From Geoalkalibacter subterraneus (GTDB taxonomy: Bacteria; Desulfobacterota; Desulfuromonadia; Desulfuromonadales; Geoalkalibacteraceae), in contig NZ_CP010312.1 in NCBI RefSeq assembly GCF_000827125.1, positions 1-64,000 of the forward strand: a stretch of DNA of 64,000 bases. Reading direction: 5' to 3'. This document shows positions 8,277 to 50,383 of the stretch, in pieces (position 1 is the stretch's first letter; every line of letters starts with the position of its first letter). The position numbers were made by a program, and so were the translations under genes. The notes beneath the pieces are model-generated. The model did no database searches, had not been told where the DNA came from, and was given only the letters and a program-made list of their open reading frames with translations.

Positions 8277-8342
8277 ATACGTCTGAGCAGGTTTGGGTAG
8301 GTCTGATAGAACGGTGTCAATTCCATGTGTCTGCCAAAAAAT

Positions 8343-16379: not shown

Positions 16380-16419
16380 GTGATTGTTTGATGTTTTCGA
16401 AGAAGGCTGGAGAAAAAAA

Positions 16420-16998: not shown

Positions 16999-17013
16999 GC
17001 GTCGAACATAGGC

Positions 17014-17273
17014 GCCGCGGACATCACGAGAATGCTGACTTTAACGCCGCTGGGGTCATCAAGCAGCGTGGCGTTAAGGCATTGCTCGCGGGTGAGATCC
17101 AGTTCAAACAGCCGCACAAAAGCGGTATACGGAAACAACCAGGGGTGGGACGACCCGAAGTTGCGCTCGGAAGAGAGGATGTCAGTCGCACGCGGCAACC
17201 GTCGCAGGCGCAGACCTCGTTGACCCGAGAAGAAACCCCCACCACAACCAATGCGGTTTAGTGGCGGGAGCGT
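17014..17273 (+). mobile_element. solo 3' end of a tnpB element (remnant R1)
   Basis: About 260 bp, nearly identical to 30172-30431 but in unrelated flanks. In frame it reads GHHENADFNAAGVIKQRG, the end of the TnpB zinc ribbon plus C-terminal tail, and closes with a right-end hairpin (CCCCCACCA with TAGTGGCGGG). The 5' boundary falls inside the zinc ribbon, just after the first Cys pair. This segment is where TnpB guide (omega) RNA scaffolds are encoded. It sits directly after traE and before the pilin leader. Minus-strand open frames over it are shadows. Confidence 0.75.
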
Positions 17274-17402
17274 TCATCGACATAAATGAAAGAAAGGAGG
17301 ACAGTGCCTATCGCGTAGCTACCATCAATTTCTGATTCCTTGGTTTTCGTGAAAGATTTTTGTTCTTCAACCCAAACAAAACAAAAACAGGAGAAAAACA
17401 AC

Positions 17403-17933
17403 ATGCTTAAGTTCAAAAAGTCCGAAAAAGGTTTCACTCTGATCGAAATGGTTATTGCAGCCGTGCTGGTCCTGATGGCCGGTGCTGTGGTCACCCCCAT
17501 GCTGCTGGGCTATGTCGATGACCAGAAAGTGGCCTCGCTGAACGAGACCCTGATAAACACCCGTGCGGCCTTTGAAGCCTTCTACACCGATAATCTGGGT
17601 GTTCTTGCAGAACCTGTCGATGGCGACTACTTCCCTGACCTCGTTGACGCAGGTTTCATGAGCCGTGTGCCGCAAACCGAAGGTGTTGAATACGAAATCA
17701 ATCTTGACGATTCTACCACCAACAGCGGCACCGCTTTCTTCGTCAAAGGAACCTTTGCCCCTAACGATGCCCAGGTAATTGACCGTCTGACCAGGCTTGA
17801 CGAACGCATTGACGGCGACAGCGGTGAATCCGCAGGCATCCTGCAGTGGGACGCAACCACCGGCTACTTTGCCTACCTGCTCTACGGCACCGGCGTTGAT
17901 CTGAACACCTCCGCCTGGCACAGCAACATCTAA
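17403..17933 (+). CDS. type IV prepilin, probable major pilin
   Basis: A 176-residue prepilin. The short basic leader is cut after KG in SEKGFTLIEMVIAA, giving an N-terminal Phe and the conserved Glu5; a hydrophobic helix follows. The start is ATG 17403 with AGGAGA upstream; a longer open frame from 17340 has no ribosome site. The protein ends in an Asn/Thr/Tyr-rich segment without cysteines. It is likely the major subunit, because it is first in the pil operon and is followed by a strong GC-rich terminator that would make its message more abundant. It should be processed by the prepilin peptidase at 29283-30053. Confidence 0.85.
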   Translation: MLKFKKSEKGFTLIEMVIAAVLVLMAGAVVTPMLLGYVDDQKVASLNETLINTRAAFEAFYTDNLGVLAEPVDGDYFPDLVDAGFMSRVPQTEGVEYEINLDDSTTNSGTAFFVKGTFAPNDAQVIDRLTRLDERIDGDSGESAGILQWDATTGYFAYLLYGTGVDLNTSAWHSNI

Positions 17934-17971
17934 GTTCACTTTTGCCACAAAAGCAGTCTTGGCATAACCGC

Positions 17972-18008
17972 AAAGGGGGCGGGGGAGACCCCGCCCCCTT
18001 TGCTTTAA
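17972..18008 (+). terminator. terminator/attenuator between the two pilin genes
   Basis: AAAGGGGGCGGGG (from 17972) pairs with CCCCGCCCCCTTT (to 18001), with a 4-base loop. It is strong enough to limit transcription into the downstream pil genes or to stabilise the 3' end of the first pilin message. Confidence 0.85.
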
Positions 18009-18029
18009 CCTTAAAAGGGGATAAAGGGA

Positions 18030-18479
18030 ATGAAAAAAACTCAAGAAAAAGGTTTTACTCTGGTTGAGATTGTGGTCGCAATCGCCCTGGTTCTTCTGGC
18101 CGCAGCCATTGTCGTCCCGATGCTTTTTAAACACATTGATCGGGAAAAAGTGGCTTCAGTCAACGCCGAAGTTCTTTCCCTGCGGGCCGCAGTTAAAGCG
18201 GCAATCCTTCGTGACGGCGGGCTCAAAGACAATAACGGCGACGGTAACTTTCTCGATGATCTGGTCGACACCGACTATCTCGACCGCGCACCGAAATCAC
18301 TGCCTGGAGCGACCTGGCTTCTCAAGCAGACCACGCATACCAGCGGACGCAAGGTGTTTTACCTCGATATCGAGTGCCCGGATGCCGAGTGCGTCAAAGT
18401 CGCCCAGGAACTCGATCTGATGGTGGATGAAGAAAGCGGGGAAAGCAGCGGCAATATCCAGTGGGCGCTGGGTTCCTGA
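18030..18479 (+). CDS. type IV prepilin-like protein (second pilin)
   Basis: A 149-residue protein with the same leader type (QEKGFTLVEIVVAIAL, Glu5 present) and about the same helix as the pilin at 17403, so the two are probably paralogues. A FxDDLVDxxYLxRxP element and an ESGES motif occur in both. It carries two Cys close together in its C-terminal part (ECPDAEC). It is likely a minor pilin or an alternative subunit. A ribosome site (AAAGGGAATG context) precedes ATG 18030. It follows the terminator after the first pilin gene, so its expression should be lower. Confidence 0.82.
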   Translation: MKKTQEKGFTLVEIVVAIALVLLAAAIVVPMLFKHIDREKVASVNAEVLSLRAAVKAAILRDGGLKDNNGDGNFLDDLVDTDYLDRAPKSLPGATWLLKQTTHTSGRKVFYLDIECPDAECVKVAQELDLMVDEESGESSGNIQWALGS

Positions 18480-18550
18480 TCCGTTTTTTTCGACAAACCA
18501 AATCTTGCAACCCAACAGATTGACCTGCAAAGCCTCCATGCGGAGTTTTT

Positions 18551-20767
18551 ATGATTGAATTAGGGCCTTACACTTTTTGTACCGTTGAGGAATTTCTGAG
18601 CGAAGAAAACGCTCATAAAAAGGATGTTCTTTATGCGGTGTTCAGCGCAGAGATCAAGCCTTTGGAGATCATGCTCCCGGCTCAAAGCAGAAGGCGAGAA
18701 GACGACCGGCGCATAAGAACAAAGCTTGAAGGGATGTCATTCCAGCAGATACCATGTTTTGCTTACAGCAAGCACAAAAACAAGGCTCAGGTTTTTTATC
18801 TGCCCAGCATCCCTTTTAAAAACAGAAGAGACTATGGCGTGGGCTTTCTGCCGGGGTCAATCGTGTTGTCTGCCCTTAATCGCGCTTTTGAGTCCGGGGA
18901 GAAAAGCCGCCTTTTTGCCATCTATCTCAAAGATAAACACGGCAGTGTCTCCTTTAGTTTCATCCATAAAGGGCAGGACGTTTTTACGCGCATCATCACT
19001 CCTTCCAATATGGAAGATTTTGAGATCGAATTCGCAGAAACCCAGCGCCACCTTCAACGCGAATTCCAGGGTGTGCCCTACGAGGTTGTGGCGGTAGGTT
19101 TTCCTGACGCGGAGATCTTCAACCTGCCCCCGCAGACGCCGTGTCACACTTTGAACTCTCTCTCAAAGGGGGTACATCTTGACTCCACGGGCTTTTTCTA
19201 CGAACCGAAAAGATACCCGGTAAAAACGGCCTTTGCAGCAGCGGTACTGGCCACAACTCTTGCGGCAACCGCATTTCTGGGCACTCATGGCGTTCAATAT
19301 GCCATGACAAAAATGGAATCAGCCCAACTTCTGGCCCAGAAGTCAGAGATCGAGATTTCAGTTAATGAAAAAGAATCTCTGAAAAAGGCATATCAAAAAC
19401 ATAAGCCCGGCACAAGATGGGGTGATTTCGTCTCAACCATCGATCTTCTGAAGCAAGCCCTCGAGCCGTATCCCTTTACTATCACCAGCATCAATATCCG
19501 TGGCGAAAATATCGATATCAGAGGCAAATTCTGGTCCTTTAAGGAACAGTACGTTCAAGACAATGTAGAGGAGGCGGGCAGAAAACTGCGTCCTTTCTTG
19601 AAGATGTTTCCCAGCGGCAAAGTCGAAAAAAAACGGGATTGGGTTTCCCAAGCGGTTCAAATAGGAGGAAAGATTTTCGATGACCCTCAAAAACGTGATT
19701 TCCAGGATAAGGTCCTGGGAGAGTTCCCCCGGGGGATGGCGCCCGATCGTCGTCCTATTCGTTCTGAGTCTGACAATGCTCTATATGGGCAATCTCTTCG
19801 AGAAAAAACACTCTCAGCTCTCGACGCAAAACACGATATTGACTACCGATATATCTATCCTCTCGGACCGATTGCAGAGATTGGAAAAGCACTCCTCACC
19901 AGTGCCTATCATTTCGCAACAGGCGTGGCTTACGCAGCTCCAGGACAAGATGCCGATGGCATGGGATATCAAAACGGAAGTATCCCAAACCCCACACCTA
20001 AGTACAATCAAGGCCAAGCTCAAATGGGAGGGGCAGACCCCTTTGACCATCAAGGATCTCAAGGCCCTGCCTTTCAGCACGATGAGCCCTACCCCTTCGA
20101 TCGACCGGATACTCATCAACGAGAACATCCAGACGATGGAGCTGTCCCTGGTCGGCCGGATCAAGCAAAACCGCTCATAATCTCAGATCCCGAGCAAGAC
20201 TCTTCGATCAGCTTCAAGGCTCTTAAAATTACATTGGATAGAGCCGAAGAAGAAAACAAAAAGCTCCAGAAAGAATTAGAGAAAATCAAAAAACAGCGCG
20301 AAAAAGCGCAGAAAAATATGACGCACTACAATCCGCCGGGTTTTTACCTTGTCAGCATGACGCCTGAATGTGTGGTGATGTCCGACGACGACGGAAACTC
20401 CTTCTTCGTTGAAAAGGGCGCGGCTTTTTTCTACGAAAAAACTCTTTTTCATCTTGTTGAAATCGAGATGGGAGAAAAGGCTGTTTTTGTTTCGGACGCT
20501 GACGCTTTGGACCTCGAAGAAAAGCTGATCTTTTTACAGCGAAGCGGCAACAAGACTCGGGGCTTCTCAAATATTGCCCGCATGGCGGCGCAGACCGAGG
20601 AAGAAAACCTGATGAGAGAGCCCGTTCTGAGCAAAAACAAGCCAAAGCCGAGTTCTTCGCAAACTCCCGATCAGAACTCTGTTGACCCGCAGAAATTCGG
20701 CAATCCGCCGACTCCAGGGATGCTTGATGGAGTCCGGCCGGACAACCTCTCTGTTTCGAGAAAATAA
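18551..20767 (+). CDS. pilus assembly protein, PilO2-like N-terminus with PilP-like C-terminus (open frame of 738 residues)
   Basis: Residues 1-375 look like the type IVB pilus accessory protein PilO of IncI plasmids: a cytoplasmic domain, a membrane helix (AAAVLATTLAATAFLG at about 228-243), then a periplasmic part. Residues about 545-738 resemble PilP: a charged coiled coil (EEENKKLQKELEKIKKQ) and a small beta domain (YLVSMTPECVVMSDDDGN). The stretch between (about 377-543) is a low-complexity Pro/Gly/Asp linker that overlaps another gene (19680-20180) in a different frame. No separate good start for the PilP part is seen (ATG 20318 would cut the coil). A run of eight A at 19626-19633 offers another reading: dropping one A ends the first protein at TAG 19662. 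Confidence 0.65.
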   Translation: MIELGPYTFCTVEEFLSEENAHKKDVLYAVFSAEIKPLEIMLPAQSRRREDDRRIRTKLEGMSFQQIPCFAYSKHKNKAQVFYLPSIPFKNRRDYGVGFLPGSIVLSALNRAFESGEKSRLFAIYLKDKHGSVSFSFIHKGQDVFTRIITPSNMEDFEIEFAETQRHLQREFQGVPYEVVAVGFPDAEIFNLPPQTPCHTLNSLSKGVHLDSTGFFYEPKRYPVKTAFAAAVLATTLAATAFLGTHGVQYAMTKMESAQLLAQKSEIEISVNEKESLKKAYQKHKPGTRWGDFVSTIDLLKQALEPYPFTITSINIRGENIDIRGKFWSFKEQYVQDNVEEAGRKLRPFLKMFPSGKVEKKRDWVSQAVQIGGKIFDDPQKRDFQDKVLGEFPRGMAPDRRPIRSESDNALYGQSLREKTLSALDAKHDIDYRYIYPLGPIAEIGKALLTSAYHFATGVAYAAPGQDADGMGYQNGSIPNPTPKYNQGQAQMGGADPFDHQGSQGPAFQHDEPYPFDRPDTHQREHPDDGAVPGRPDQAKPLIISDPEQDSSISFKALKITLDRAEEENKKLQKELEKIKKQREKAQKNMTHYNPPGFYLVSMTPECVVMSDDDGNSFFVEKGAAFFYEKTLFHLVEIEMGEKAVFVSDADALDLEEKLIFLQRSGNKTRGFSNIARMAAQTEEENLMREPVLSKNKPKPSSSQTPDQNSVDPQKFGNPPTPGMLDGVRPDNLSVSRK
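19680..20180 (+). CDS. small membrane protein (PilO/GspM-like), embedded in another frame
   Basis: A 166-residue protein with one N-terminal membrane helix (PIVVLFVLSLTMLYMGNLF) followed by a coiled-coil-like stretch and a small C-terminal domain, the plan of PilO/GspM-type inner-membrane proteins. It has a strong AGGAGG (19663-19668) 11 bases before ATG 19680, and G/C-rich third positions like its neighbours. The evidence that this frame is translated is good. What is odd is that the whole gene lies within the 738-residue frame of 18551-20767, which stays open throughout. Partners should be the PilN/PilP-like proteins and the secretin encoded next door. Confidence 0.7.
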   Translation: MTLKNVISRIRSWESSPGGWRPIVVLFVLSLTMLYMGNLFEKKHSQLSTQNTILTTDISILSDRLQRLEKHSSPVPIISQQAWLTQLQDKMPMAWDIKTEVSQTPHLSTIKAKLKWEGQTPLTIKDLKALPFSTMSPTPSIDRILINENIQTMELSLVGRIKQNRS

Positions 20768-20796
20768 TAGAAAAATCCTTTTGGGAGATATTTGAT

Positions 20797-22485
20797 ATGC
20801 GTATTTGGGCCTTCATTCTCACCGTTTTTCTTTTGGCAGGGTGCAGCACCATGCACAAAAGTCCGACCCTGCAGGACAAAATGGAAAAAGACTACAGTGC
20901 GGTACTCGAAGCGGAAAAAACTCCGCCGCCTTCGGTTGTTTTCTTTATAGAAGAACACGATTCCCTGGAAAGATTCAAAAATCACCCGGCTGCGCAAGAC
21001 CAGATCAATTTGGTCAGCGGCGGAGGCGAGAGTCTGGCAAACATCGTTCGGCTGATTCAGATGCAGACCTCCCTGGTGATGGTTCCCAAAGACCTCGAAA
21101 ATATCGATGCAGGAATTGTAAGTTTTCGCAAAATGCCTCTTTTAAAAGTGCTGCAGTTTATACGCAGCCGCTATGACGTTGAGTTCAACTACGACCGGCA
21201 AGCCGATATTTTTGAAGTCAAAAAAGACATCACCCGCCGCATCATTCTGCCACCGATTCTTGACTCCCAATCGGGAGTTATCGGTGGCGAAGACGGGGTA
21301 AGCGTCGCGGCAGAACCAGATCATCTGCGAGATATCATTATGGAGACCGCAAAAACTCTGGAAGTCCAGGTAGTTGCGGTCAGCGAAACTACAGGTTTGA
21401 TGCACCTCAAAGGCCGCCCCTCCAAGGTGCGTGAACTCTCGCGCATTATTGAGTCTGAAGCCACAGAAAGGCTTAAGTTTGTCACCTTGCACGTCATGTT
21501 TCTTGAGGTGCGGCGCAACAATTCCTTTGACCGTGATTTTCGACTGGAATACCTGCCCAACCTTTCATTTCTCGGCAACGATGTGTTTGGAACATTCAAA
21601 TTCGCCATGCCTGTCTCTCTTCTGCCCAACGATCAAAATTCATCCGGCTCCACTCAATCGCTGGCTGGAAACGGACAGTCCTCAGACGATCAGCAAGGCG
21701 GGATTCCTGTACCTTCAAGTGATAACGGGGACACAAATGGCGACGATGGATCTGGACTTTTGCCGGCTGTGGCAGGAAGCAGCATGTTTGTTCCCACCGA
21801 CAAGGCAAGCGCGGGCGTGCGCGGCAGCAAGTTTGCCTCTCTTCTGACGCTTCTTGAGCAGTGGGGGGACAGCGAACTTGTGACAGCCCCTGCAGTTATG
21901 ACGCCCAATGGCGTGCCGGTAAGCTTCGATGTGGTCGATGAGATAGGCTACTGGGAACCCGGCGATATCGACACGTCCCTGGGAGACTCTTTCGGAAAAT
22001 CAATCACCGAAGGCAAGCCCGAATTTGTCAGCGACGAGGTGGGATTGAAACTGCGAATTCGCCCCAAAATCATCGAAGATGCCGCCACAGGGGATTTCAT
22101 GGTGGAACTCGATATCGCACTGGAGAACTCCAAGGTCAGAGAATACGCCTCGATTCAATGGCAGAGATCTTCCGATACCGATCCGGTAATGCTCTCAAAA
22201 CCATTGAAAAGCACCAAAAGGGTTTCTTCCCGAGCAGTGCTGCGTCCGGACGAACTGCTTCTGCTTGCGCGGCTCGACAATAAGGATAATGCAGGGGCCA
22301 AGGCGGGTTTGCCCGGAACCGTTGGAAGCGACAGCATTCTGGCCAAGCCTTTTGTCAGCGAGGCTTCCCGCATCAACGAAAGTCAGCTTTTTATCGTCGT
22401 TGACGCAATCTTGCCACCCAACTTGACCAACACCAAAGAGGAGCCGGTCGAACAGAAGGTCAAAAACCTCTCGGCCTATCGGTAA
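20797..22485 (+). CDS. type IV pilus secretin, lipoprotein (PilN/BfpB type)
   Basis: A 562-residue outer-membrane secretin that would form the exit pore of the type IV pilus. The lipobox LLAGC puts the lipidated Cys at residue 16, which is typical of IncI PilN and BfpB secretins. N-domains follow (about 60-230), then the secretin beta domain with the VTAPAVMTPNGVPVSFDV and EVGLKLRIRPKI type motifs (about 365-430). A Ser/Gly/Asp-rich insert at about 280-320 is unusual. The gene follows the PilO/PilP-like genes by 29 bases, and the PilZ gene starts 13 bases later. Confidence 0.88.
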   Translation: MRIWAFILTVFLLAGCSTMHKSPTLQDKMEKDYSAVLEAEKTPPPSVVFFIEEHDSLERFKNHPAAQDQINLVSGGGESLANIVRLIQMQTSLVMVPKDLENIDAGIVSFRKMPLLKVLQFIRSRYDVEFNYDRQADIFEVKKDITRRIILPPILDSQSGVIGGEDGVSVAAEPDHLRDIIMETAKTLEVQVVAVSETTGLMHLKGRPSKVRELSRIIESEATERLKFVTLHVMFLEVRRNNSFDRDFRLEYLPNLSFLGNDVFGTFKFAMPVSLLPNDQNSSGSTQSLAGNGQSSDDQQGGIPVPSSDNGDTNGDDGSGLLPAVAGSSMFVPTDKASAGVRGSKFASLLTLLEQWGDSELVTAPAVMTPNGVPVSFDVVDEIGYWEPGDIDTSLGDSFGKSITEGKPEFVSDEVGLKLRIRPKIIEDAATGDFMVELDIALENSKVREYASIQWQRSSDTDPVMLSKPLKSTKRVSSRAVLRPDELLLLARLDNKDNAGAKAGLPGTVGSDSILAKPFVSEASRINESQLFIVVDAILPPNLTNTKEEPVEQKVKNLSAYR

Positions 22486-22498
22486 GAAGGAAAAGAAG

Positions 22499-23233
22499 AT
22501 GCCCAGAAAAAAAGATGAGATCAGCCTGATCATTTTATGTTCCCTGTCCAACCGAGACCTGCTGGAGAAAATCCCCCAGGAAATGGGAGCCAGCTTCGAT
22601 ACCGTTTTCAGTGTCGATGACATCTACCATCATCCGGTGGTCACAAAGAAATATCATGGCTTTGTTTTGGATACGGCCAATGTGCAAAAGCTCGAGAAGC
22701 ATCAGCGGACAATTATCCAGCGTATGCAGCAGGCATTCCCCATGCTCTTTCTCGATACGACCACACTCTATCAAAAAGAGAACGACCCGCAATGGTTTTG
22801 GTCGGATCGTTTTGTTGAGCGGTTTGTTGAAGCCGTCAACAAGTTTTCTCCCCGCCCGGTCAGAAATCAGGCCCGGGTCAGGTTGCCGCTGCATGGGCAT
22901 ATCTGCATGGCCTCTCACTTCAAAAACAGCTTACGAGTTGTTACAGAGAATATTTCCGAGGGGGGCGCTTTCTTGCTGCTCAACGAAAGCGAACGCTTTG
23001 AAACAGGGGATATGGCATGGGTCAAAATAAGCGAGATCTGCGAAGATAATCCGATAAAGGCTTCAGTGCGGTGGGTTTCCAAGTGGGGCGAAAACGGCAA
23101 ATTTCCCGGCGTTGGCGTTGAGTTTGTGCGGATTGAGACGGAACATAAAGAAAAAATCAAACAGATTCTTGAACAGGCAAAAAACGAGCAGGAGTCGTCA
23201 TTGTCGCCAGAGGGAGTTGTAGATGCGATTTAA
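22499..23233 (+). CDS. PilZ-domain protein 1
   Basis: A 244-residue protein. The N-terminal 110 residues are unassigned; they may be a degenerate receiver-like domain, as they list hydrophobic strands such as YHGFVLDTAN. The C-terminal PilZ domain has both c-di-GMP-binding signatures: RxxxR as RNQAR at about residues 122-126, and NxSxxG as NISEGG at about 150-155. It is probably a c-di-GMP receptor that controls pilus assembly. Its last codons overlap the start of the next pilin-like gene by 11 bases, which indicates translational coupling within the pil operon. Confidence 0.85.
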   Translation: MPRKKDEISLIILCSLSNRDLLEKIPQEMGASFDTVFSVDDIYHHPVVTKKYHGFVLDTANVQKLEKHQRTIIQRMQQAFPMLFLDTTTLYQKENDPQWFWSDRFVERFVEAVNKFSPRPVRNQARVRLPLHGHICMASHFKNSLRVVTENISEGGAFLLLNESERFETGDMAWVKISEICEDNPIKASVRWVSKWGENGKFPGVGVEFVRIETEHKEKIKQILEQAKNEQESSLSPEGVVDAI

Positions 23234-24227
23234 TAATCAAAAAGGTTTGGCTTTACTGGAAGTTGTGATTGCCGCAGCCATTGTTGCCATCATGGGCTCT
23301 GTCGGCATGGTGAGTTGGGCACAAATCTCGAACGTGAAATCTCAAAAAAATACCGAGCAAAACATCCTTGCGGCCAAATCAGCCTACATCCAGCACTACG
23401 AAAATACCGGCTCAAGGGCTTCCTCGCTTCAGGATCTGGTCTACCTGATCGGCAAGGCTCCCCGGGACGGATGGAGGCAGCCTCTGACCCTGTGGGAAGA
23501 TGTCTCTTATGACCCGGACGGAAACGGCGCCGTCGAATATGACGCCGTGATTATCTCTCCCGGCCAGGATACGGTTGTTGACTCCTCGGTTGACGCATCA
23601 GGGAACCTAACCCTTTCCAGCAAAGATACCGCGACACTGGTCTCCCTTGAAACCCAGCGCCTTGAAAAGCTCGACCAGGCGGCAGAGGAGATGAAGCTTA
23701 TCCTTCAGGCCGCTTTGTCCTACTACGACAAAACCGGCACGAAGCCTTCGACCATCGCAGACCTTGACGGGCACATCCCTTTTAACAGAAAGGACAGCTC
23801 AGGCAACCTTCTGGACCCCTGGCGCAGTCCCTATCAGAGTCAGGACAGCACTTCTGCACCGGGCGGTTTTTTCAGCGTATCGAGTTACGGTCCCGATCGC
23901 AGCGGATCAACCTCCGACGATCTGGAGAATTTCGTTCCGCAGTCTCAATACGACGGGGTGGCGCGCAATGTTTCCCTGCGCAGGATCGCTTCAGCAAATG
24001 CGGCATTGAGTATTTACGAAACAAACTGGGGCGACCCCGGCTGCAGCACAGACCCGGCTCAGTGCGTGACGTACCTGGTGGTGGACCCTCTCGGAAACGC
24101 CTTGATGGACGGCAAAAACGCCTACGATGCGTGGGGACGCATTTTGATCTACGATGCGTCTCTTGGAGGCTTTTTTTCCACAGGTCCTGATGGAGACAGC
24201 TCTACCTTATCGGACAACGTTCGTTGA
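23223..24227 (+). CDS. large pilin-like protein (GspG-like), C-terminal tail cut by TGA
   Basis: A 334-residue protein with a prepilin leader (NQKGLALLEVVIAAAI, Glu5 present) and two successive GspG-like regions, each with a YYxxTGxxP..L and DPW/DAWG motif. It is probably a minor or tip pilin. After the TGA at 24225-24227 the same frame stays open for 68 more codons to TGA 24432-24434. That part encodes a Ser/Gly spacer, a Cys and eight PPGGG repeats. The first TGA is therefore likely a nonsense change in a longer gene, or it is read through. The gene overlaps the PilZ gene upstream. Confidence 0.8.
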   Translation: MRFNNQKGLALLEVVIAAAIVAIMGSVGMVSWAQISNVKSQKNTEQNILAAKSAYIQHYENTGSRASSLQDLVYLIGKAPRDGWRQPLTLWEDVSYDPDGNGAVEYDAVIISPGQDTVVDSSVDASGNLTLSSKDTATLVSLETQRLEKLDQAAEEMKLILQAALSYYDKTGTKPSTIADLDGHIPFNRKDSSGNLLDPWRSPYQSQDSTSAPGGFFSVSSYGPDRSGSTSDDLENFVPQSQYDGVARNVSLRRIASANAALSIYETNWGDPGCSTDPAQCVTYLVVDPLGNALMDGKNAYDAWGRILIYDASLGGFFSTGPDGDSSTLSDNVR

Positions 24228-24434
24228 GGGGATAGTAGCGGCGGCGGCAGTTCGTCGCTCCCAGAATGCTCTACCCCTCAAGGCGTCTACCCGCCAGAAA
24301 CACCTCCCGGTGGTGGTCCTCCCGGTGGCGGACCTCCCGGTGGCGGCCCTCCCGGTGGTGGTCCTCCCGGTGGTGGTCCTCCCGGTGGCGGACCTCCCGG
24401 TGGCGGACCTCCCGGTGGTGGTCGCTGGAAATGA
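24228..24434 (+). pseudogene. in-frame 3' continuation of the pilin-like gene
   Basis: Read in the same frame as 23223-24227, this segment gives DSSGGGSSSLPEC, STPQGVYPPET, eight PPGGG units, RWK and a TGA. The composition fits a disordered collagen-like tail. No start codon or ribosome site of its own is visible, so it is expressed only if the TGA at 24225 is bypassed or is a sequence error. Confidence 0.55.
24303..24422 (+). repeat. 15-bp tandem repeat, eight units (PPGGG)
   Basis: Eight units of CCTCCCGGTGGNGGN. Variation is confined to third codon positions (GGT, GGA or GGC), which argues that the PPGGG protein repeat has been under selection rather than being a pure DNA expansion. Confidence 0.95.
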
Positions 24435-24464
24435 TAAAAAACAAAAACAACGAGGAGACTTTCT

Positions 24465-25592
24465 TTGGAACCCGCACCCTGTTTTTTAAACAAAGAGCCC
24501 GAAGGCAACGACGTGTTGGACCTTAAATATCTGCTGCAAAAAGCGGTTGAAAAAGGTGCGTCGGATCTGCATATCACAATAAACAACCCTCCGCGGATGC
24601 GTATTGACGGAGAGCTTTGCAATGCCGGGACTCAACTGCTTGATGCCTCTCAGACGCAAGAGCTGTGCATGCAGATTCTTTCCCCGGAACAAAAAAAACA
24701 GCTGCAGGAAGGAAAAAAAGAGCTTGATTTTGCTTTTGAGATAGAAGGCGTCAGCCGTTTTCGGTGCAACATCTTCCATAATCTCAAAAGCATCTGCGGG
24801 GTTTTTCGCGTCATTCCCTATAAGATCTTGAGTTTTGAGGAACTTGGTCTTCCGCGGATCGGATTCAGTATGATCGATGCTCGTCCCGGCCTGGTGTTGA
24901 TCACCGGAGCAACCGGAAGCGGCAAGTCTACGACCCTTGCGGCCATGGTAGATAAGATCAATTCGGATAGAAATCACCATGTTTTGACCATAGAGGATCC
25001 GGTCGAATTTGTTCATCCAAAGAAGAAAGCCATCGTTACCCAGCGTGAGGTTGGGGTCGACACGGACAGCTTTGCCTCGGCCCTGAAATATGCCCTGCGT
25101 GAAGATCCCGATGTTGTGTTGGTAGGGGAGATGCGTGACCTTGAAACAATCTCCAATGCGCTGACCATCGCAGAGACAGGGCATCTCGTTTTAGCCACTC
25201 TGCACACCAACTCGGCCGTGCAGTCAATCAATCGCATCATTGATGTTTTCCCCTCCCACCAGCAACCGCAGGTCAGAACTCAGCTCTCCTTTGTGCTAAA
25301 AGGTGTCTTTTCACAAAAACTCGTTCCTGCCGCCAACGGATCTGGCCGGGTTCTGGCCCTTGAAACACTTTGCCCCAACAATGCGATAAGGCAGTTGATT
25401 CGTGAGGACAAGCTTCATCAAATTGAATCTCACATGCTTTCAGGTCAAAGATCACACGGGATGCAAGTTATGGATATGCACCTGGTTTCTCTAGTAAAAG
25501 AGGGGAAAATTCGTAGGGAAACAGCCATCCAACATGCCAAAAACCCAGAAGACATGCAGTCCGAACTGCCGCAGACCGGCCTTGGTTTTTAA
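24465..25592 (+). CDS. pilT: PilT-family retraction ATPase
   Basis: A 375-residue ATPase of the PilT/PilU family, of usual length. The Walker A is GATGSGKST at about residues 148-156; Asp box (TIEDPVEF), Walker B (VVLVGEMRDLET) and His box (TLHTN) are all present, as is the AIRQLIRE element. It should power pilus retraction. The start is TTG 24465 with GAGGAG at 24451-24456. IncI pil loci have one assembly ATPase and no dedicated PilT motor, so a retraction motor here is notable and implies a dynamic pilus. It is followed 12 bases later by the platform gene. Confidence 0.9.
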   Translation: MEPAPCFLNKEPEGNDVLDLKYLLQKAVEKGASDLHITINNPPRMRIDGELCNAGTQLLDASQTQELCMQILSPEQKKQLQEGKKELDFAFEIEGVSRFRCNIFHNLKSICGVFRVIPYKILSFEELGLPRIGFSMIDARPGLVLITGATGSGKSTTLAAMVDKINSDRNHHVLTIEDPVEFVHPKKKAIVTQREVGVDTDSFASALKYALREDPDVVLVGEMRDLETISNALTIAETGHLVLATLHTNSAVQSINRIIDVFPSHQQPQVRTQLSFVLKGVFSQKLVPAANGSGRVLALETLCPNNAIRQLIREDKLHQIESHMLSGQRSHGMQVMDMHLVSLVKEGKIRRETAIQHAKNPEDMQSELPQTGLGF

Positions 25593-25604
25593 CGGAGAAC
25601 AAAA

Positions 25605-26837
25605 ATGCCTCAATTCAAATACGTTGCACGCACCGCGGACGGAAAGAAAAAAACCAAGGGAGTCATGATTGCCTCCTCCAAAATCGATCTGGCAAACAAA
25701 ATTGAGTCCCAGGGAGACTTTCTGATCTGGTGCGAGGAAAAAAACAGCGAGGAAAACTCCCGAGCTTTCATGGATAACCTTTCGAGAATTTTCCAGAAAA
25801 AGGTTCCCAAAAAACATGTCGCCGATTTTCTGAAACAACTCAAGGTTTACATCAGAGCCGGCATCGCAATCCCGGCAGCTCTGGAAGAAACCCAAAAGAC
25901 GACAGGGAATAAAAAGTTTCAAGAAATCATCCAGTCGGTCAAAGCGACAATCGAAAACGGAGAAACTTTGGCTGAGGCGCTGGCAACCTTTCCCGGCGTT
26001 TTTGATACCATGCTGGTTGAATCTATCCGGATGGGGGAAGAAAGCGGGAGTTTGCCAGAGGTCATTCAAGGGCAATCCGACAGGTTGGCTCGCGAAGCAA
26101 AATTGGTCTCAAAGATGAAAAGCCAAAGCGTTTATCCGGTACTGCTTTGCACAATCGTTTTTACGCTGCTGATTGTCATGAACACCATCATCGTTCCGAA
26201 CCTTATGAATTCCTATGAGAGCTTTCTTCCCAAGGGAGATGTTCCCCCAAAAACGGCATTGATTATGGGAATCAATCAATGGCTGATGGACTATGGATGG
26301 CTTCTCCCTTCTTTCATGGTGGTCTTTTTCTTCAGCTTTGTCTTTGCTGAACTTCATCCGGCAACAAAAAAATTGAAAGACGCATTTAAGCTCAAAATAC
26401 CAATCATCAAAACGTTTATCCTCTACAGCAATCTCTCTCGTGTCTGTGACGGGATAAAGGTCGGGTATTCCTCCGGGATGCCGATAACAAAAATCCTGCA
26501 ATTTCTGGAAAAACACGTCAACAATATGGTTGTTCAGGAAAGAGTTCGTGGAATTTATACCGAAATAATCAATGGGACAACTTTCTCTTTAGCTGTGAAA
26601 CAGAACCATCTCGATCATGTTTTTTCTTCTCTAGCCTCGGCAGGAGAGGGGACAGGTAATCTGACTTACACCATGGATATCGGGATGGACCACTATAATG
26701 AAAAGCTCGACTCTCTGATCGGCGTTGCCACAACCGTCGGAAGCTTTATGGTCGTTATATTCCTGGGGCTTATTGTCATGTTTACCGTTATGTCGATCAT
26801 CATACCAATGTACGAACTACCTTCAGCATTGATATGA
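25605..26837 (+). CDS. pilC: PilC/GspF-family inner-membrane platform protein
   Basis: A 410-residue platform protein of usual size. It starts with the PQFKYVARTADGKKKTKG motif of PilC and has two GspF repeats (about residues 70-195 and 270-400) and three membrane segments (about 180-205, 230-250, 375-405). The motif GETLAEAL in the first half is typical. It anchors the pilus fibre and couples to the PilB and PilT ATPases. It lies between pilT and the second PilZ gene in the pil operon, with a 12-base gap upstream. Confidence 0.92.
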   Translation: MPQFKYVARTADGKKKTKGVMIASSKIDLANKIESQGDFLIWCEEKNSEENSRAFMDNLSRIFQKKVPKKHVADFLKQLKVYIRAGIAIPAALEETQKTTGNKKFQEIIQSVKATIENGETLAEALATFPGVFDTMLVESIRMGEESGSLPEVIQGQSDRLAREAKLVSKMKSQSVYPVLLCTIVFTLLIVMNTIIVPNLMNSYESFLPKGDVPPKTALIMGINQWLMDYGWLLPSFMVVFFFSFVFAELHPATKKLKDAFKLKIPIIKTFILYSNLSRVCDGIKVGYSSGMPITKILQFLEKHVNNMVVQERVRGIYTEIINGTTFSLAVKQNHLDHVFSSLASAGEGTGNLTYTMDIGMDHYNEKLDSLIGVATTVGSFMVVIFLGLIVMFTVMSIIIPMYELPSALI

Positions 26838-26850
26838 GGAAGGGGTAGAG

Positions 26851-27531
26851 GTGATGAATAAAACAGTTTGGGACAACATTAAACAAGCCACCCTGTCCCA
26901 GCCGGTTCCAACCGAAATTTATCTGCCGGCAGGAGACTCCTCCAAAATTGTTCAGTTCGATGGTGTTCTTCGTGTCAAGAAAAAGCCCTACATCCACTTC
27001 AGACTGGTGGGGCATGACCAGATTCTGAAAGAAATAAAAGTAGGTCAGATCGCTCTTATCAACACCGATCCGATAGACGGGAATTTCTTCTCTGCCGCCA
27101 TCATCGAGCATATTGCTCCCGGCGGGGTTCTTCTCAGGCTCTACGATGAAAAAAGAGGTCCCTTAAGAGTTGATGCAGAGTGCCCCGTTGAAATGACCTT
27201 TTTCACCATCGACCAAGAAAAAGAAGACTATGAAAAACATCTACAAATTCGGGTCGGAAAAACGCTCAATATATCAAAAGAAGGAATTCTGGTTAATTCC
27301 GACTTGCCAATGCCTGTCGGTATCACAGTCGTTTCGAAAATCTTCATTGATGAACACAGCACTCCGATTATGGTAACAAGCAAGGTTCTGCGGTGTGAGG
27401 AAAACATCTCCAACAGTTACCATGTCGCTCTTGAGCCGATATATTGTAGTTCCCAGGAGTTGGAAAAAATTGAACATTTCTGTTTGGTTCAAAAATGCCG
27501 GCAACTTCAATCCTCAGAAATTGAAATCTAA
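26851..27531 (+). CDS. PilZ-domain protein 2
   Basis: A 226-residue protein with the YcgR-like plan: an N-terminal beta domain (about 1-95) then a PilZ domain. Signatures are RxxxR as RGPLR at about residues 101-105 and NxSxxG as NISKEG at about 138-143, so c-di-GMP binding is likely. It starts at GTG 26851 or ATG 26854. It lies between the platform gene and the PilB-like ATPase, the most likely targets. It is the second PilZ protein in this operon and is clearly different from the one at 22499. Confidence 0.82.
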   Translation: MMNKTVWDNIKQATLSQPVPTEIYLPAGDSSKIVQFDGVLRVKKKPYIHFRLVGHDQILKEIKVGQIALINTDPIDGNFFSAAIIEHIAPGGVLLRLYDEKRGPLRVDAECPVEMTFFTIDQEKEDYEKHLQIRVGKTLNISKEGILVNSDLPMPVGITVVSKIFIDEHSTPIMVTSKVLRCEENISNSYHVALEPIYCSSQELEKIEHFCLVQKCRQLQSSEIEI

Positions 27532-27543
27532 AAGGGCCTGATT

Positions 27544-29283
27544 ATGTCTTTTTTAAACACCGTGAGAAATAAAACCGCCAATGTGGTTGAAAAGGAAAAA
27601 GAGGAAGAAAAAAACTTTCGACTTGGAGACCTGCTTAAAGAACAGGGTTTACTGTCTGATCGCGACATTCAGATCATTGCGACAGAACAAAAAGCAATCG
27701 GAGGTCGTTTCGGCGAAATCGCTCTGAATCTCGGGCTTGTCAATGAGACTCAGATCACCCAGGCGCTGGCTAAGCAGGCAGGCATGCAGTATTTCGATCT
27801 TCGCTCAGAAGATATCGATGTCGATGCCGCCCAGTTTATCGATTCCGAAAAATCCAGGGAACATGAAATTCTCCCTCTGGCCTTAAACGACAATACGCTT
27901 CTCGTTGGGATCACAGAGCCGACCAATGTAAAAAAAAGGGATCTGGCCAAAAAGTTTCTTGGCCAGCATAAACTCGAATTTTGCGCCATCGACAAATCAG
28001 AACTATTTCTGGTCCAATCGCGGGTTTTTCCGGATCTCAACTTCCAGACCAAGGCGCTTGAACTGGCAGAACAGATGGGCAAGGACCAGAACAAGGATAC
28101 AAGCTCTCTGACTCCCCGCCTGGTCAACGCGATCGTCTGGGACGCACTCTCCAATAAAGCAAGCGATATCCACCTTGTTTATGGCGGCGATATCTTTCGC
28201 ATCTTCTATCGCATTGCCGGGGCTTTGCGCTACATGTACGGATTTAAACCTCAACTCTACTCCCGGGTTGCCGCCCAGATCAAGCAGGCCGCGGGCATGG
28301 AACCCGGAGACAAACTTCACGCCCAGGGCGGGAATTTCAATTTCCAGACCGGATCGCGCACGGTCAACACTCGTGTCAGTAAACTCCCTACGGTGCCCCT
28401 GCAAGAGGGCGAATCACTGGTTTTGCGCCTTCTTGACCAAAACAGGGTTTCTCTCAACCTTAAAACACTTGGGTTCTACCCTGAAGACGTTGAAAAACTC
28501 AAGAAATCCTGCACCATGCCCTACGGCATGATTCTCTGCACAGGCCCAACCGGCAGCGGTAAAACAACGACTCTCTACTCCATGCTCTCAGCCATCAGCG
28601 CGTTTGACACCAAAATACTGACCATCGAAGATCCGGTGGAATATCAGCTCCCCGGAATCTGTCAGGTTCAAGTCAACGCCCGAGCGGAGATCACCTTCGC
28701 CTCGGCCTTGAGAGAATTTCTGCGCCAGGACCCGGACGTAATTCTCGTAGGCGAGACTCGAGATCCGGAAACCGCAAAAATCTCCATTCAGGCGGCTTTG
28801 ACAGGACACCTTCTGTTCTCAACTCTTCATACCAACGATGCAGCAGGCGCTATCCCACGACTGCTTAACTATGATGTCGATATCAACGGGTTGCAGTCCT
28901 CTTTGGCCGTCATTATTGCTCAGCGCCTGGTGCGAAAACTCTGCAAGCACTGTCACGAAGAAAGGCCTCTGACCGCAGACGAAAAAGAGCTTTTTCTGCG
29001 CCACAGCGTCAAAGCCCCGGAAACCGTGCGTATTGCCTCCGAGAAAAAAAGCAGCACCTGTAAATTCTGCAACGGCGGGTACTCCTCTCCCACCATTATC
29101 TACGAAACTATTTACATGGATGAAGACCTGCGCGAGATGATCCGCAAAGGCATCTCCCATCGGGAGTTTCAGAGCGCGGCAATCAAAAAGGGGATGAAAA
29201 CCATGATTCAGTGCGGTCTGCAAAAGGTGGCAGACCATACAACTTCTTTTAGCGAAGTGCTCAAGGTCACGAGGGTCGGCTAA
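27544..29283 (+). CDS. pilB: PilB/GspE-family assembly ATPase with MshEN domain
   Basis: A 579-residue assembly ATPase, full length. The N-terminal MshEN domain (about residues 25-100) shows the paired c-di-GMP-binding pattern, RLGxxLxxxG followed by a second RFG..L.LG copy. Walker A GPTGSGKT is at about residue 334; Walker B (VILVGETRDPET) and His box (TLHTNDA) follow. The zinc-binding Cys pairs CKHC (about 466) and CKFC (about 506) are present. It powers pilus extension, and MshEN would make that c-di-GMP dependent. Its stop codon overlaps the prepilin peptidase start by one base. Confidence 0.92.
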   Translation: MSFLNTVRNKTANVVEKEKEEEKNFRLGDLLKEQGLLSDRDIQIIATEQKAIGGRFGEIALNLGLVNETQITQALAKQAGMQYFDLRSEDIDVDAAQFIDSEKSREHEILPLALNDNTLLVGITEPTNVKKRDLAKKFLGQHKLEFCAIDKSELFLVQSRVFPDLNFQTKALELAEQMGKDQNKDTSSLTPRLVNAIVWDALSNKASDIHLVYGGDIFRIFYRIAGALRYMYGFKPQLYSRVAAQIKQAAGMEPGDKLHAQGGNFNFQTGSRTVNTRVSKLPTVPLQEGESLVLRLLDQNRVSLNLKTLGFYPEDVEKLKKSCTMPYGMILCTGPTGSGKTTTLYSMLSAISAFDTKILTIEDPVEYQLPGICQVQVNARAEITFASALREFLRQDPDVILVGETRDPETAKISIQAALTGHLLFSTLHTNDAAGAIPRLLNYDVDINGLQSSLAVIIAQRLVRKLCKHCHEERPLTADEKELFLRHSVKAPETVRIASEKKSSTCKFCNGGYSSPTIIYETIYMDEDLREMIRKGISHREFQSAAIKKGMKTMIQCGLQKVADHTTSFSEVLKVTRVG

Positions 29284-30053
29284 TGATCGATATCTACTTC
29301 ACGACGTTTCTTGCGGTCATGGGTGCCGTAATCGGGTCTTTTCTGAATGTTGTCATTTATCGATTGCCACTTGGGAAAAACTGGGCAAACGGGCGCTCGG
29401 CCTGCCCAAAGTGCGAAGCTCCGATCACTTGGAAACAAAACATTCCTGTTTTGAGCTACCTTGTCCTAAAAGGACGCTGCGCCCGGTGTCGCAAACCTAT
29501 ATCCGTGCGCTATCCGCTTGTTGAGATGGTAACGGCCGCTCTTTTTGGGGCGGCCTATCTCGAATTCGGCTTCGGGTCTGATCTTGCGGCCAGTCTGCTT
29601 CTGATCGTCACATTGGTTGTTATCACTGGAATTGACATCGATCACCAGATCATTCCGGACGTGATTACCTACCCGGCTGCAGTTGCAGGGGTGCTTTTCG
29701 CTTTTTCGAACAACTCCCCCGAGTTAGCTGATGCTCTGATTGGTGCAGCAACAGGCTATGGCGTTTTCTTCGCACTCAATTGGACTTACATTCTTGTGCG
29801 CAAACGTGAAGCCATGGGAATGGGTGACGCCAAGCTTTTTGCTGTTCTTGGACTTTTTCTGGGATGGCAGGCTCTTTTGCCTATCTTCATCGTCGCCGTT
29901 TTTTCCTGCTTCTTTTTTATCCTTGCCCACGCGCTCGTTTGCAAGGGAACCCCACCCAAAATTCTTCCGTTCGGCCCCTTTTTGTCCCTTGGCGGATTGA
30001 GTTGTCTTTTCTTCGACCCCGCCGCTATCCAATCCCTACTGTTCAGATTCTGA
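29283..30053 (+). CDS. pilD: prepilin peptidase (PilD/GspO)
   Basis: A 256-residue bifunctional leader peptidase/N-methyltransferase. The cytoplasmic domain has two CPKC/CARC zinc pairs (about residues 40-75), expected of the methylating PilD type. Aspartyl protease motifs are GIDIDHQIIPD (about 118-128) and GMGDAKL (about 179-185). Several membrane segments are visible. It would process the three prepilins in this locus. It closes the pil operon; regulatory dyad E follows. Confidence 0.92.
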   Translation: MIDIYFTTFLAVMGAVIGSFLNVVIYRLPLGKNWANGRSACPKCEAPITWKQNIPVLSYLVLKGRCARCRKPISVRYPLVEMVTAALFGAAYLEFGFGSDLAASLLLIVTLVVITGIDIDHQIIPDVITYPAAVAGVLFAFSNNSPELADALIGAATGYGVFFALNWTYILVRKREAMGMGDAKLFAVLGLFLGWQALLPIFIVAVFSCFFFILAHALVCKGTPPKILPFGPFLSLGGLSCLFFDPAAIQSLLFRF

Positions 30054-30069
30054 AAATGGCCGGGAAAAT

Positions 30070-30133
30070 CTTTAAATAGGGCAGAAAATAGCACTTATTC
30101 GACAGTAAGAAGCCCTGAAGTCTGCGCTACTCT
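30070..30133 (+). promoter_or_regulatory. regulatory dyad E and -10 box
   Basis: The left half AAATA starts at 30074 and the right half TTATTC ends at 30100. The -10-like TACTCT begins 28 bases later at 30128, the same hexamer as in dyad B. The arms are less symmetrical than in A, C or D. The expected transcript crosses remnant R2 and reaches the gene at 30480. Confidence 0.5.
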
Positions 30134-30171
30134 CTTGCAAAAGTGGATTTTCTGCAACCAGGAAAATTGAA

Positions 30172-30431
30172 GCTGCGGCCATCACGAGAATGCTGACTTT
30201 AACGCCGCTGGGGTCATCAAGCACAGAGGCGTTAACGCATTGCTCGCGGGTGAGATCCAGTTCAAACAGCCGCGCAAAAGCGGTATACGGAAACAACCAG
30301 GGGTGGGACGACCCGAAGTTACGCTCGGAAGAGAGGATGTCAGTCGCACGCGGCAACCGTCGCAGGCGCAGACCTCGTTGACCCGAGAAGAACCCCCACT
30401 ACAACCAATACGGTTTAGTGGCGGGAGCGTT
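30172..30431 (+). mobile_element. solo 3' end of a tnpB element (remnant R2)
   Basis: The near-identical partner of 17014-17273, with the same 5' boundary (codons for the CGHHENADFNAA zinc-ribbon half) and the same right end (TAGTGGCGGGAGCGTT). Here the Cys before GHH is retained (TGC GGC CAT CAC). It lies between the -10 of dyad E and the next gene, so it forms most of that gene's leader. Differences from R1 are few and include both substitutions and one single-base gap. Confidence 0.75.
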
Positions 30432-30479
30432 TATAACACATTCTTGCAAAAGGAGGCAGTCGTGAAGAAGTCTTGATTA

Positions 30480-32611: not shown

Positions 32612-33256
32612 CTATTTAGGCGGCAGGCAGCGGTCGCGGTACTGGGGAGGGATCTTGTATTTGTGAGATTCAAGAAGCGCAATGTCTTCATCCGTTAAAT
32701 CTTCTCCATTCCGGCAATATTTCATCCACGCCCTGTCCAGCGCAGAGAGATCTGGCCCTTCACTGCGGACAGAGGCATTTGATTTTCGTTCGTTGAGAAA
32801 GTCGCGGGCTTTTTGTAGAGCCTGATTTTGGTCTGAATTCTGTTGCGCGAGCTTGGAGGATTCTTCGTTGATGGGAAAAACTCCGACTTTTGGCCCATCT
32901 TCAGTCGTTTTTTTGTCAGATACGGATTTTTGACAGGGCCTATCCCCCTTTTTGAAGGGGCAGGGTTTTTTCTTTGCACAAGGAGTCTTTTTTTCCTCCT
33001 CCGTGCGTTCTCCCCAGATAATCTCCGGAAGCCTTTGATTTTGAGCCCTGATGACATGATCGGGGCGAGTCACTAAAAGAACGGCCCCTGACGCTTCGGG
33101 GGAAACAACGCCGTAGCCTGTTTCATAAGCCCACTGCTGAGCGGGTTCTTGCCCATGCGTTAAAAAAGGGGAAACCTCTTCCACCGACTTGCCGGCACAT
33201 CCCAAATTAACTCCGACCACAAAAGCAAGCAGCGTTCCAATATAAACCTTGCTCAT
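32612..33256 (-). CDS. putative lipoprotein, unknown function
   Basis: A 214-residue protein, start ATG 33256 (GGAGG upstream). The N-terminal hydrophobic segment ends in VNLGCAG, a likely but imperfect lipobox. The middle is Lys/Cys-rich (CAKKKPCPFKKGDRPC), and the C-terminal 40 residues (RAWMKYCRNG..LTDEDIALLE) look like a small helical domain. I do not recognise the family. A frame starting upstream at 33280 lies in the right end of the IscB element, so it is not the original start. The ribosome site now used is supplied by the element's end. Confidence 0.6.
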   Translation of the reverse strand: MSKVYIGTLLAFVVGVNLGCAGKSVEEVSPFLTHGQEPAQQWAYETGYGVVSPEASGAVLLVTRPDHVIRAQNQRLPEIIWGERTEEEKKTPCAKKKPCPFKKGDRPCQKSVSDKKTTEDGPKVGVFPINEESSKLAQQNSDQNQALQKARDFLNERKSNASVRSEGPDLSALDRAWMKYCRNGEDLTDEDIALLESHKYKIPPQYRDRCLPPK

Positions 33257-33313
33257 GAAAAATACCTCCAGGAAACCCACTACTTCAGTAATGGGAGGAA
33301 TGGAGCTACGCCG

Positions 33314-33521
33314 TCAGGCGTATGAATAGCCATCCGCTTTATGCAGCAGCCGGCAATGTCGCCAGCCGATGCCTTGAAGGGTGGCTACCTCCGTTTTGAT
33401 GTTGAATGAGCCGGTAGCGCGAACCGCTACCCGCCCGACGTAAGTCCCTGCTTTCCTTCCCGCTACTACAACCGCCTTAACAATGTCGCCGGTTGTTATC
33501 AAGAACGAATACTTGTTGCAT
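33314..33521 (-). pseudogene. iscB: iscB remnant, internal deletion
   Basis: ATG 33521 starts MQQVFVLDNN, the usual IscB N-terminus. After about 11 codons it joins, one base out of frame, to the IscB C-terminal end: TGDIVKAVV, GRKAGTYVGRVAVRA, TGSFNIKT and a CRLLHKADGYSYA ending. The deleted middle held the RuvC and HNH nuclease domains and the bridge helix, so no nuclease can be made. The frame check is simple: 33521 to 33314 is 208 bases, not a multiple of three. Confidence 0.75.
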
Positions 33522-33775
33522 ACTGTTACCGTACTTTCTCCGCTTACGCGGGTGATGTTTCCCTCGCCAATGTTATCCAACGGTTTGTCGGCAACCGCAC
33601 CGACTTAACCCCTTACGTCTGTTTAATGGTTGCCCGTAGAGCCTGGGGCTGGGAAATGCACTCCAGGGTACCTATGTATTCGCCGGTAACGTAGCTGAAA
33701 GACCTGAGAGGCTTTCAGCTGAGGCTGGTCAGGTTAGGGCTTGCAAACCATCGACTTTAGTCGTGGGTTCCTGAC
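33522..33775 (-). ncRNA. HEARO-type omega RNA of IscB
   Basis: The bases before the iscB start read as the GC-rich structured leader typical of HEARO RNAs: a hairpin CCACGACTAAAGTCGATGG, a CAGCTGAAAG/CTTTCAGCTA pairing, and further on GGGCAACCATTAAACAG and GTGCGGTTGCCGACAAACCG elements. By the known layout of IscB RNAs, the guide would be the sequence 5' of the left end (above about 33778). The assignment is from memory of the family, not from a covariance search. Confidence 0.55.
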
Positions 33776-49962: not shown

Positions 49963-50358
49963 CATCCTCCCGGCCGTGAACAGACCGGGATTTCAAGGAT
50001 CAACGGCTGCGGCCTACCTCTTGCGAGGCGGGTCTTACGCAGCCTCCCCTTCCAGGCGATGCCCCCGCCTGGTGAGCGAAAAGGCGAAGGCCTTCGCGCT
50101 CGATATTGATGGCGGCGTTCGCGTCTCGATCGTGATGCGATGCGCAACGTGAACAGGTCCACTCCCGGTCCCGAAGGGATAGCACCCGGAGATCGGGCGG
50201 CACTACTGGAAAGGCGGACTCTGGTTGCCGTCTTACTTCGCCGCCTCTTGCGGCGGCGCGCCGATCTCCATCATCAGGCAGTACATCGAAAAACAACGGC
50301 AATGACCGCAAGCGGTCAGCACCTTATATCCCGGCCGTGAACTGACCGGGTTTTACGG
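49961..50358 (-). mobile_element. short tnpB-derived element with both ends (remnant R3)
   Basis: Two similar hairpins face the same way: CCCGG..CCGGG at 49969-49989 and at 50330-50350 (CCCGGCCGTGAACxGACCGGG). Read on the minus strand between them is only the end of a TnpB (about 50150-50000): [20 protein letters not shown] and a short tail. A perfect 7-bp-arm hairpin TGACCGCAAGCGGTCA lies at 50303-50318. The element is about 400 bp, keeps terminal structures and the guide-RNA region, and lacks any transposase or nuclease. Confidence 0.7.
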
Positions 50359-50383
50359 CGCGCCAGATAAGACGGAGCAAGTG

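Follow-up and report, generated by a model that had tools for sequence, protein, structure and literature searches.

Transposition of IS200/IS605 elements by TnpA involves single-strand cuts, one on the 3' side of the target motif and the other past the right-end motif, and the donor is sealed (PMC8612924). The target motifs of IS608 and ISDra2 are TTAC and TTGAT, respectively (PMC8612924), and TCAA, TTCA and TTAT are described as IS605 cleavage motifs, with TCAA found in many IS605 elements (PMC9956272). The ISDra2 RNA is ~150 nt long, ~16 nt of which is guide (PMC8612924), and processed omega RNA scaffolds measure 79–466 nt and carry a hairpin near the 3' end (PMC10278001). Here, two short tnpB-end units, R1 and R2, are compared with these systems. 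They lie on the 242-kb plasmid of Geoalkalibacter subterraneus Red1, for which a finished genome with megaplasmid has been published (PMC4357744). The window, i.e. the whole stretch of DNA analysed, comprises bases 1–64000 of contig C2 (242,122 bp); the genome consists of two contigs (3,717,645 bp). All nine matches to PF07282 (TnpB) in the genome are on C2 and none is on the chromosome, while the 26 matches to Y1 transposases are spread over both contigs, and open tnpA frames are present on the plasmid. Chromosome C1 holds seven IS200-type tnpA copies with identical scores, though no tnpB was found there.

Two tnpB-end units with common boundaries

R1 (17014..17277, plus strand, right end GTTCAT) consists of a tnpB 3' end and a right end and carries a putative omega RNA scaffold; R2 (30172..30434, plus strand) is a unit of the same type with the right end GTTTAT. 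Positions 17014–17273 and 30172–30430 are 96% identical over 260 nt, and the alignment extends to 17277 and 30434, with 95.5% identity over 264 columns. This bears out the original prediction of two ~260-bp tnpB-end units with common boundaries and unlike flanks, the coordinates of which were right to within a few bases, R2 homology ending at 30434 and not at 30431. The left breaks agree to ~2 nt (R1, GCCGCGGACATC; R2, GCTGCGGCCATC). A larger duplication of the two loci, which the prediction had named as the counter-case, was looked for and is ruled out, since the 4-kb flanks compared show no homology (best match 19 nt, E 0.027).

Read in frame, both units give (C/R)GHHENADFNAAGVIK..., the end of the TnpB zinc ribbon, and the 5' break sits at the last CxxC of that ribbon. 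By homology, R1 and R2 correspond to the part of an IS605-type tnpB from the zinc ribbon to the right end (73% identity to a further copy on C2 and 70% to one in genome G031). Seven of the first 68 codons differ between them (five non-synonymous and two synonymous changes), and a one-base gap in R2 breaks the old tnpB frame near the end of the unit. Because of these codon changes and the frame break, neither unit is kept as a protein.

In both units, as is typical of IS200/IS605 elements, a right-end palindrome lies just 5' of the 3' cleavage motif: at 17236..17268 in R1 (plus strand; CCCCCACCA...GTGGcGGG, with one arm altered) and at 30393..30425 in R2 (plus strand; CCCCCACTA...TAGTGGcGGG). 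A second hairpin of 8 bp, located 27 nt inside the unit, is found near the left end (R2, 30199..30235, plus strand, TTAACGCC...GGCGTTAA; R1 counterpart, 17041–17077), and its arms are unmatched in two longer relatives. Neither R1 nor R2 contains the family's left-end palindrome, CCCCCT...AGGcGGG.

On their sequence, R1 and R2 are putative TnpB omega RNA loci. The right-end hairpin and the stretch of guide-RNA size that the units had been predicted to hold are both present, and units of the R type and of a second family described below would both fit an omega RNA in size and shape. By analogy with TnpB biology (PMC8612924), the would-be guides are the flanks after the right end, at 17278..17297 for R1 and 30435..30454 for R2 (both plus strand). 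Compared with dinucleotide shuffles, R1 folds with a z of -2.2 (6 of 200 shuffles as good) and R2 with a z of -3.1 (0 of 200 as good).

R1 and R2 are direct repeats bordering a 12.7-kb type IV pilus/secretion-type cluster (17403..30053, plus strand; pilin-like, secretin, PilZ, two T2SSE, T2SSF and prepilin peptidase genes) inside an F-type tra region. Together with replication and relaxase genes, this cluster splits traL–traE (16098–16998) from traK–traB (39871–42320). Insertions at operon borders are not surprising, and recombination between R1 and R2 would delete the cluster.

A 37-bp imperfect palindrome, CCTTTAAATAAGG-N11-CCTTATTTAAAGG, recurs on C2 (window 46–82, 8342, 30069 and 39735, among others). 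After merging, the plasmid has 18 such sites (20 before), against 0.6 expected in block-shuffled controls, and several of them lie upstream of genes, tra genes among them; a stricter pattern has one chromosome match. It looks like an operator or promoter of a plasmid-wide regulon. The copy at 30069..30105 (plus strand) is 66 bp upstream of R2, with R2 between it and ORF 30480–31616. This ORF, which has a sub-threshold Pfam match only and contains an internal ~340-bp tandem duplication (30532–30865 / 30880–31219), is a paralogue of contig 170351–171454 (60% amino acid identity), and each is downstream of a palindrome copy; the leader of the 170-kb paralogue has the upstream palindrome alone in common with the R2 region. 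The second-family unit u2b lies 3' of a promoter-like palindrome and before a 441-aa ORF. Since each is located between a promoter-like palindrome and an ORF, R2 and u2b could be transcribed. Elsewhere in the window, an IS607-type pair (MerR/resolvase-type gene and tnpB, 6730–8276) is directly followed by the palindrome copy at 8342 and by the gene for a 1866-aa Ig-like protein.

Landing motifs, relatives and further solo ends

R2 starts directly after TTGAA (30167..30171, plus strand), exactly the target motif (TAM) of the R-type element family. TTGAA is found 5' of all three readable R-type left ends (those of the 72-kb element L003, the 106.7-kb end and the G031 element), and its frequency on the plasmid is 0.0016. 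In R1 the match is inexact: TTGAA itself is missing, and TCGAA followed by seven extra nt, CATAGGC, precedes the unit (17002..17013, plus strand), possibly representing an altered TAM plus 7 nt. ATAGGC is also present 13 nt upstream of CATAGGC, and the 7 nt may be a local copy of it. Trimming at the landing motif in at least one unit looks like a precise event and not like random decay. The original argument that a common break does not come from random decay thus gains from the motif junctions of R2 and of the second family, with the motif altered in R1.

The genome-wide search for the 260-bp unit, proposed along with the prediction, returned one further copy (C2:73499–73763; 73% identity to R1 and 75% to R2), at the end of a longer tnpB. 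This 72-kb element carries tnpA (71929–72291, minus strand) divergent from tnpB, and the frame of the latter switches shortly after the first RuvC motif and is broken. The relative in G031 (JAFGRU010000056.1, an environmental MAG of the same order; 70% to the unit) has a tnpB with an open frame and matches to three Pfam families of the TnpB type, and PF07282 is matched by both longer tnpB. The G031 element appears to interrupt a gene: when it is cut at TTGAA|...TTCAT, a 77-codon open frame spans the joint, with 32 codons after it, and a Pfam search with the joined flank protein gave no match.

The R-type unit was matched in 2 of 195 genomes including its own, the other match being the longer G031 element, and the short unit is absent from the 194 other genomes. 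In the phylum collection, only its own genome was matched (1 of 395). A search of 277 class genomes with the L003 end matched three, the own included; the third (G066, same order) has a 22-nt perfect match to the R-type right end (L037, G066:C56:24972–24993), the rest being missing. The genome_contigs collection contained three loci, one on the G031 contig (L028) and two weaker; viral contigs gave one match, the plasmid collection a single 42-nt stretch and phages no match. Such sparse matches across genome, plasmid, phage and viral collections rule out a widespread R-type unit. When empty sites for R1 and R2 were sought in relatives, two neighbour genes had no counterpart in the 194 other genomes. 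Among plasmids, the R1 region had no match and the R2 region matched 402 records, the 20 listed of these 402 all in the T2SSE gene. A ~110-nt mini-element at contig 106673–106740 (minus strand) combines an R-type left end, after TTGAA, with a right end of the TCAA type, similar to the one carried by the 14.1–15.8 kb element.

Plasmid self-comparison revealed a second IS605 family, represented by full copies at 145.7, 165.2 and 228.2 kb that are nearly identical, one decayed copy at 50 kb, two single-hairpin remnants and four solo 3' ends. The decayed copy (frag50; 49959..50370, minus strand) is internally deleted, retaining the left end with TTAT beside it, a piece of tnpA, the tnpB 3' end and the right end. 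TTAT is 5' of 5 of 5 left ends in the longer copies and the relative L007, and the right-end cleavage motif is TCAA. The solo ends u2a (112697–112842, plus strand) and u2b (232251–232106, minus strand) are 94.5% identical and break at the same place, the tnpB NAA.N motif; the comparison reported no homology between their flanks. The u2a junction, TTTTAT|TATCGAGCGCGAAGG, consists of TTAT and the exact sequence that follows an internal TCAA in frag50; from this sequence G085 differs by one base and the full copies by two. The u2b junction reads ...TTTTTTAT|TGAGCG, which contains TTAT on the assumption of a single base change in the unit, and the TCAA reading needs a motif mismatch. The two remnants, of ~46 nt (73805–73855, minus strand, and 144270–144311, plus strand), are each a left-end start fused to a right-end tail; the former comes after TTAC and the latter after no motif. 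Among 271 genomes of relatives, own included, second-family solo ends gave any match in 9 and the right-end pattern in 5.

L061, from another genome (G047) and another subfamily, reads TTTAC|TGTATTAAGG and breaks at the codon for N in the NAA.N motif; this break was placed by eye, the tblastn match runs 8 residues past it, and no parent tnpB was found. The motif is lacking at the breaks of u3 (181.2 kb), u4 (152.6 kb), L060 and L184. Varied 5' breaks, which had been put forward as evidence against the original prediction, do occur in part, in the second family (the motif-less ends at 181.2 and 152.6 kb), alongside the break shared by u2a and u2b. Overall, the family motif is at the junction in four of the eight solo ends scored (R1, R2, u2a, u2b, u3, u4, L060 and L061), a non-random sample in which the inclusion of L184 gives 4 of 9. 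The chance of at least four such junctions in eight is about 3e-5 with ±2 nt slack, a rough figure since the junctions were placed by eye.

Two scans of viral contigs (at least 240 stretches), plus eight loci from relatives, yielded at least 259 right-end-tail sites in at least 248 loci. A tnpB was found upstream of at least 36 by motif and of at least 22 more by tblastn, and right-end-like GAAT is present at at least 32 of the at least 201 remaining sites. Fifteen of these 32 were read, the other 17 being viewed as tails only: L061 is motif-exact, L060 and L184 are not, 8 of the 15 are not judgeable, and by eye a left end is retained in L117 (two sites), L149 and L175. The tails of L117, a viral contig (1038 and 1739, minus strand), belong to an IS605 mini-element of ~113 nt that is reduced to its ends and present twice.

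Origin of the units

The explanation that we tentatively place first is that R1 and R2 are IS605 copies that were stripped from the TAM to the zinc ribbon by an event linked to TnpA, with guide-RNA loci as the residue. The starting point would be two insertions of a single IS605-type subfamily, each losing everything between TTGAA and a fixed zinc-ribbon point in tnpB. In such an event the Y1 transposase (TnpA) would excise aberrantly, cutting the left end as usual and taking a right-end-like site within tnpB instead of the genuine right end, and the sealed product would be motif, tnpB 3' end and right end. The scaffold, the right-end hairpin and the flank-derived guide would stay, while the left end, tnpA and the nuclease would go. 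Three points in this scenario are inferred: the joint as the work of TnpA, the use of a right-end mimic inside tnpB and the independence of the two losses. Support comes from the motif-exact junction of R2, the common break, the lost left palindrome and the parallels in u2a/u2b and L061.

In IS608, the guide sequence GAAT pairs with TCAA. The full copies of the second family have GAAT and a bulged-C hairpin (CCCGTCGTG...CACGACcGGG, pairing by eye) 5' of the internal TCAA, and this site resembles the true right end, GAAT-CCCGGTC...GGCCGGG-AGGATG-TCAA. At the position of the R2 break, G031 reads CTTAT, near the right-end motif TTCAT/TTTAT. However, several observations count against TnpA-linked stripping. 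The GAAT of the internal mimic is missing in frag50 and G085, two of the three second-family tnpB versions, with TCAA kept, and the L003 tnpB reads CCAAC at the R break, which is not right-end-like. R1 lacks the exact motif, u3, u4, L060 and L184 are motif-less, u2b has a motif mismatch on the TCAA reading, the tblastn match of L061 runs past its break and its parent tnpB was not found, and one of the two single-hairpin remnants has no motif. In the joined G031 frame a stop follows shortly after the joint, and there is no Pfam match. Self-comparison of the plasmid turned up no reciprocal product (left end joined to the internal site), and the R-type break was compared with G031 and the 72-kb element, no full-length parent of R1 and R2 being among the copies found.

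Alternatively, in the reading that we place second, R1 and R2 could be a non-autonomous mobile unit, in which the hairpin within tnpB substitutes for the left end and TnpA supplied in trans moves the unit to TTGAA. The common ends in unrelated flanks, the location of R2 and u2a/u2b at the motif (u2a/u2b being simplest as one unit after TTAT), the 8-bp hairpin that both units have and longer copies lack, and the open tnpA frames on the plasmid are all consistent with this. However, TnpA should need a left-end palindrome for transposition, and the family-type palindrome (CCCCC...GGcGGG) is missing. R1 also lacks the exact motif, and there are two copies only, with none in the 194 other genomes, where the one match is a longer element. 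Movement of the unit as such, one of the routes offered by the original prediction, is possible but, with that palindrome absent, less likely.

The same plasmid also carries an IscB guide-only mini-element that has spread, a further point in favour of mobility. This mini-HEARO (33253..33775, minus strand) has an iscB of which ~10 codons at the start and ~60 at the end are left, and a complete HEARO/omega RNA. Rfam identifies HEARO (IscB omega RNA, RF02033) at 33552–33775 on the minus strand and at three more places on C2, with none on the chromosome; two of the others precede open iscB frames (130.1 and 192.7 kb). The second mini-HEARO copy (contig 109344–109866, plus strand) is identical at 512 of 523 positions, and the two copies match RF02033 at full length with 126.7 and 138.7 bits, above the gathering score. 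Their left flanks are unlike and the internal iscB deletion is identical. Since the copies agree in both element ends and in one deletion joint, the mini-HEARO was most likely copied as a unit. Each copy ends at an ATG that possibly starts the next ORF, for which a GGAGG inside the mini-HEARO is a possible ribosome-binding site; the plasmid collection contained three partial matches. The suggestion of a guide-only minimal mobile unit thus applies on this plasmid through the IscB unit and is less supported for R1 and R2.

Ordinary decay is an unlikely source of both units, although somewhat in keeping with the plasmid's content. Here the common break would go back to microhomology at the left-end edge and in the ribbon, with deletion of the intervening DNA, or to recombination between plasmid copies, and would imply neither a function nor a special mechanism. 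The plasmid is rich in decayed IS605 pieces with varied breaks (u3, u4, 50 kb and 144 kb), and the ratio of five non-synonymous to two synonymous changes, with the frame break, indicates the lack of protein constraint that decay would leave. It does not readily account for junctions that fall exactly at the motif in two families and also in a second genome. Finally, it is very improbable that R1 and R2 are trans-acting guide loci under selection, whose omega RNAs would load an outside TnpB and influence the host, for instance as regulators: folding beats the shuffles and R2 and u2b are each flanked by a promoter-like palindrome and the start of a gene, but the right-end hairpin arm of R1 is altered and the sole related tnpB found in the genome is frame-broken, which makes a present trans role unlikely and leaves the proposed action with a TnpB from elsewhere unsupported.

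Returning to TnpA-linked stripping, what the analysis adds to the original prediction is the motif-exact junction, recurring in two families. In a wider form, which we regard as possible but far from established, the zinc-ribbon/NAA.N stretch of tnpB mimics a right end, and mis-excision by TnpA repeatedly makes TAM-bounded guide-only loci. If true, transposons would have a built-in route for leaving orphan guide RNAs, in at least three tnpB subfamilies. Orphan guide-RNA loci are usually seen as decay or domesticated parts, and a recurrent motif-exact joint would mean that the transposase itself produces them. Such loci would then be a source of trans-acting guides that can be tested, and raw material for regulators derived from TnpB. 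The IscB guide-only mini-element, with its two copies, represents a second route on the same plasmid.

Comparison with known systems

No description of solo tnpB ends with a common break was found in the literature searched, which is not to claim that none is in print. As described in PMC3119063 and PMC7290912, palindrome-associated transposable elements (PATEs) resemble R1 and R2 in being IS605-derived, transposase-less and non-coding, with the core deleted and no target duplication. However, PATEs keep both near-terminal palindromes and R1 and R2 the right one only, which sets them apart from PATEs; also unlike PATEs, they keep ~220 nt of tnpB, the guide-RNA part, upstream of the right-end hairpin. 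The reRNA/omega RNA locus of ISDra2 TnpB likewise consists of a tnpB 3' end and a right end with a 3'-proximal hairpin and takes its guide from the flank, putatively so in R1 and R2 (PMC8612924), and their length of 260 nt falls inside the 79–466 nt of processed omega RNAs (PMC10278001). In contrast to that locus, R1 and R2 have no tnpB attached and are putative guide loci known from sequence.

The TTGAA of the R type resembles the known TTGAT (PMC8612924), and the TTAT/TTAC and TCAA of the solo-end families are identical to motifs of known families (PMC8612924, PMC9956272). Excision of IS608 and ISDra2 is described as using the true right end, whereas the joint of the R1/R2 type connects the motif to an internal tnpB site. 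The mini-HEARO has the RNA of HEARO/IscB (RF02033) at full length and differs in its internally deleted iscB, with the identical deletion in two copies.
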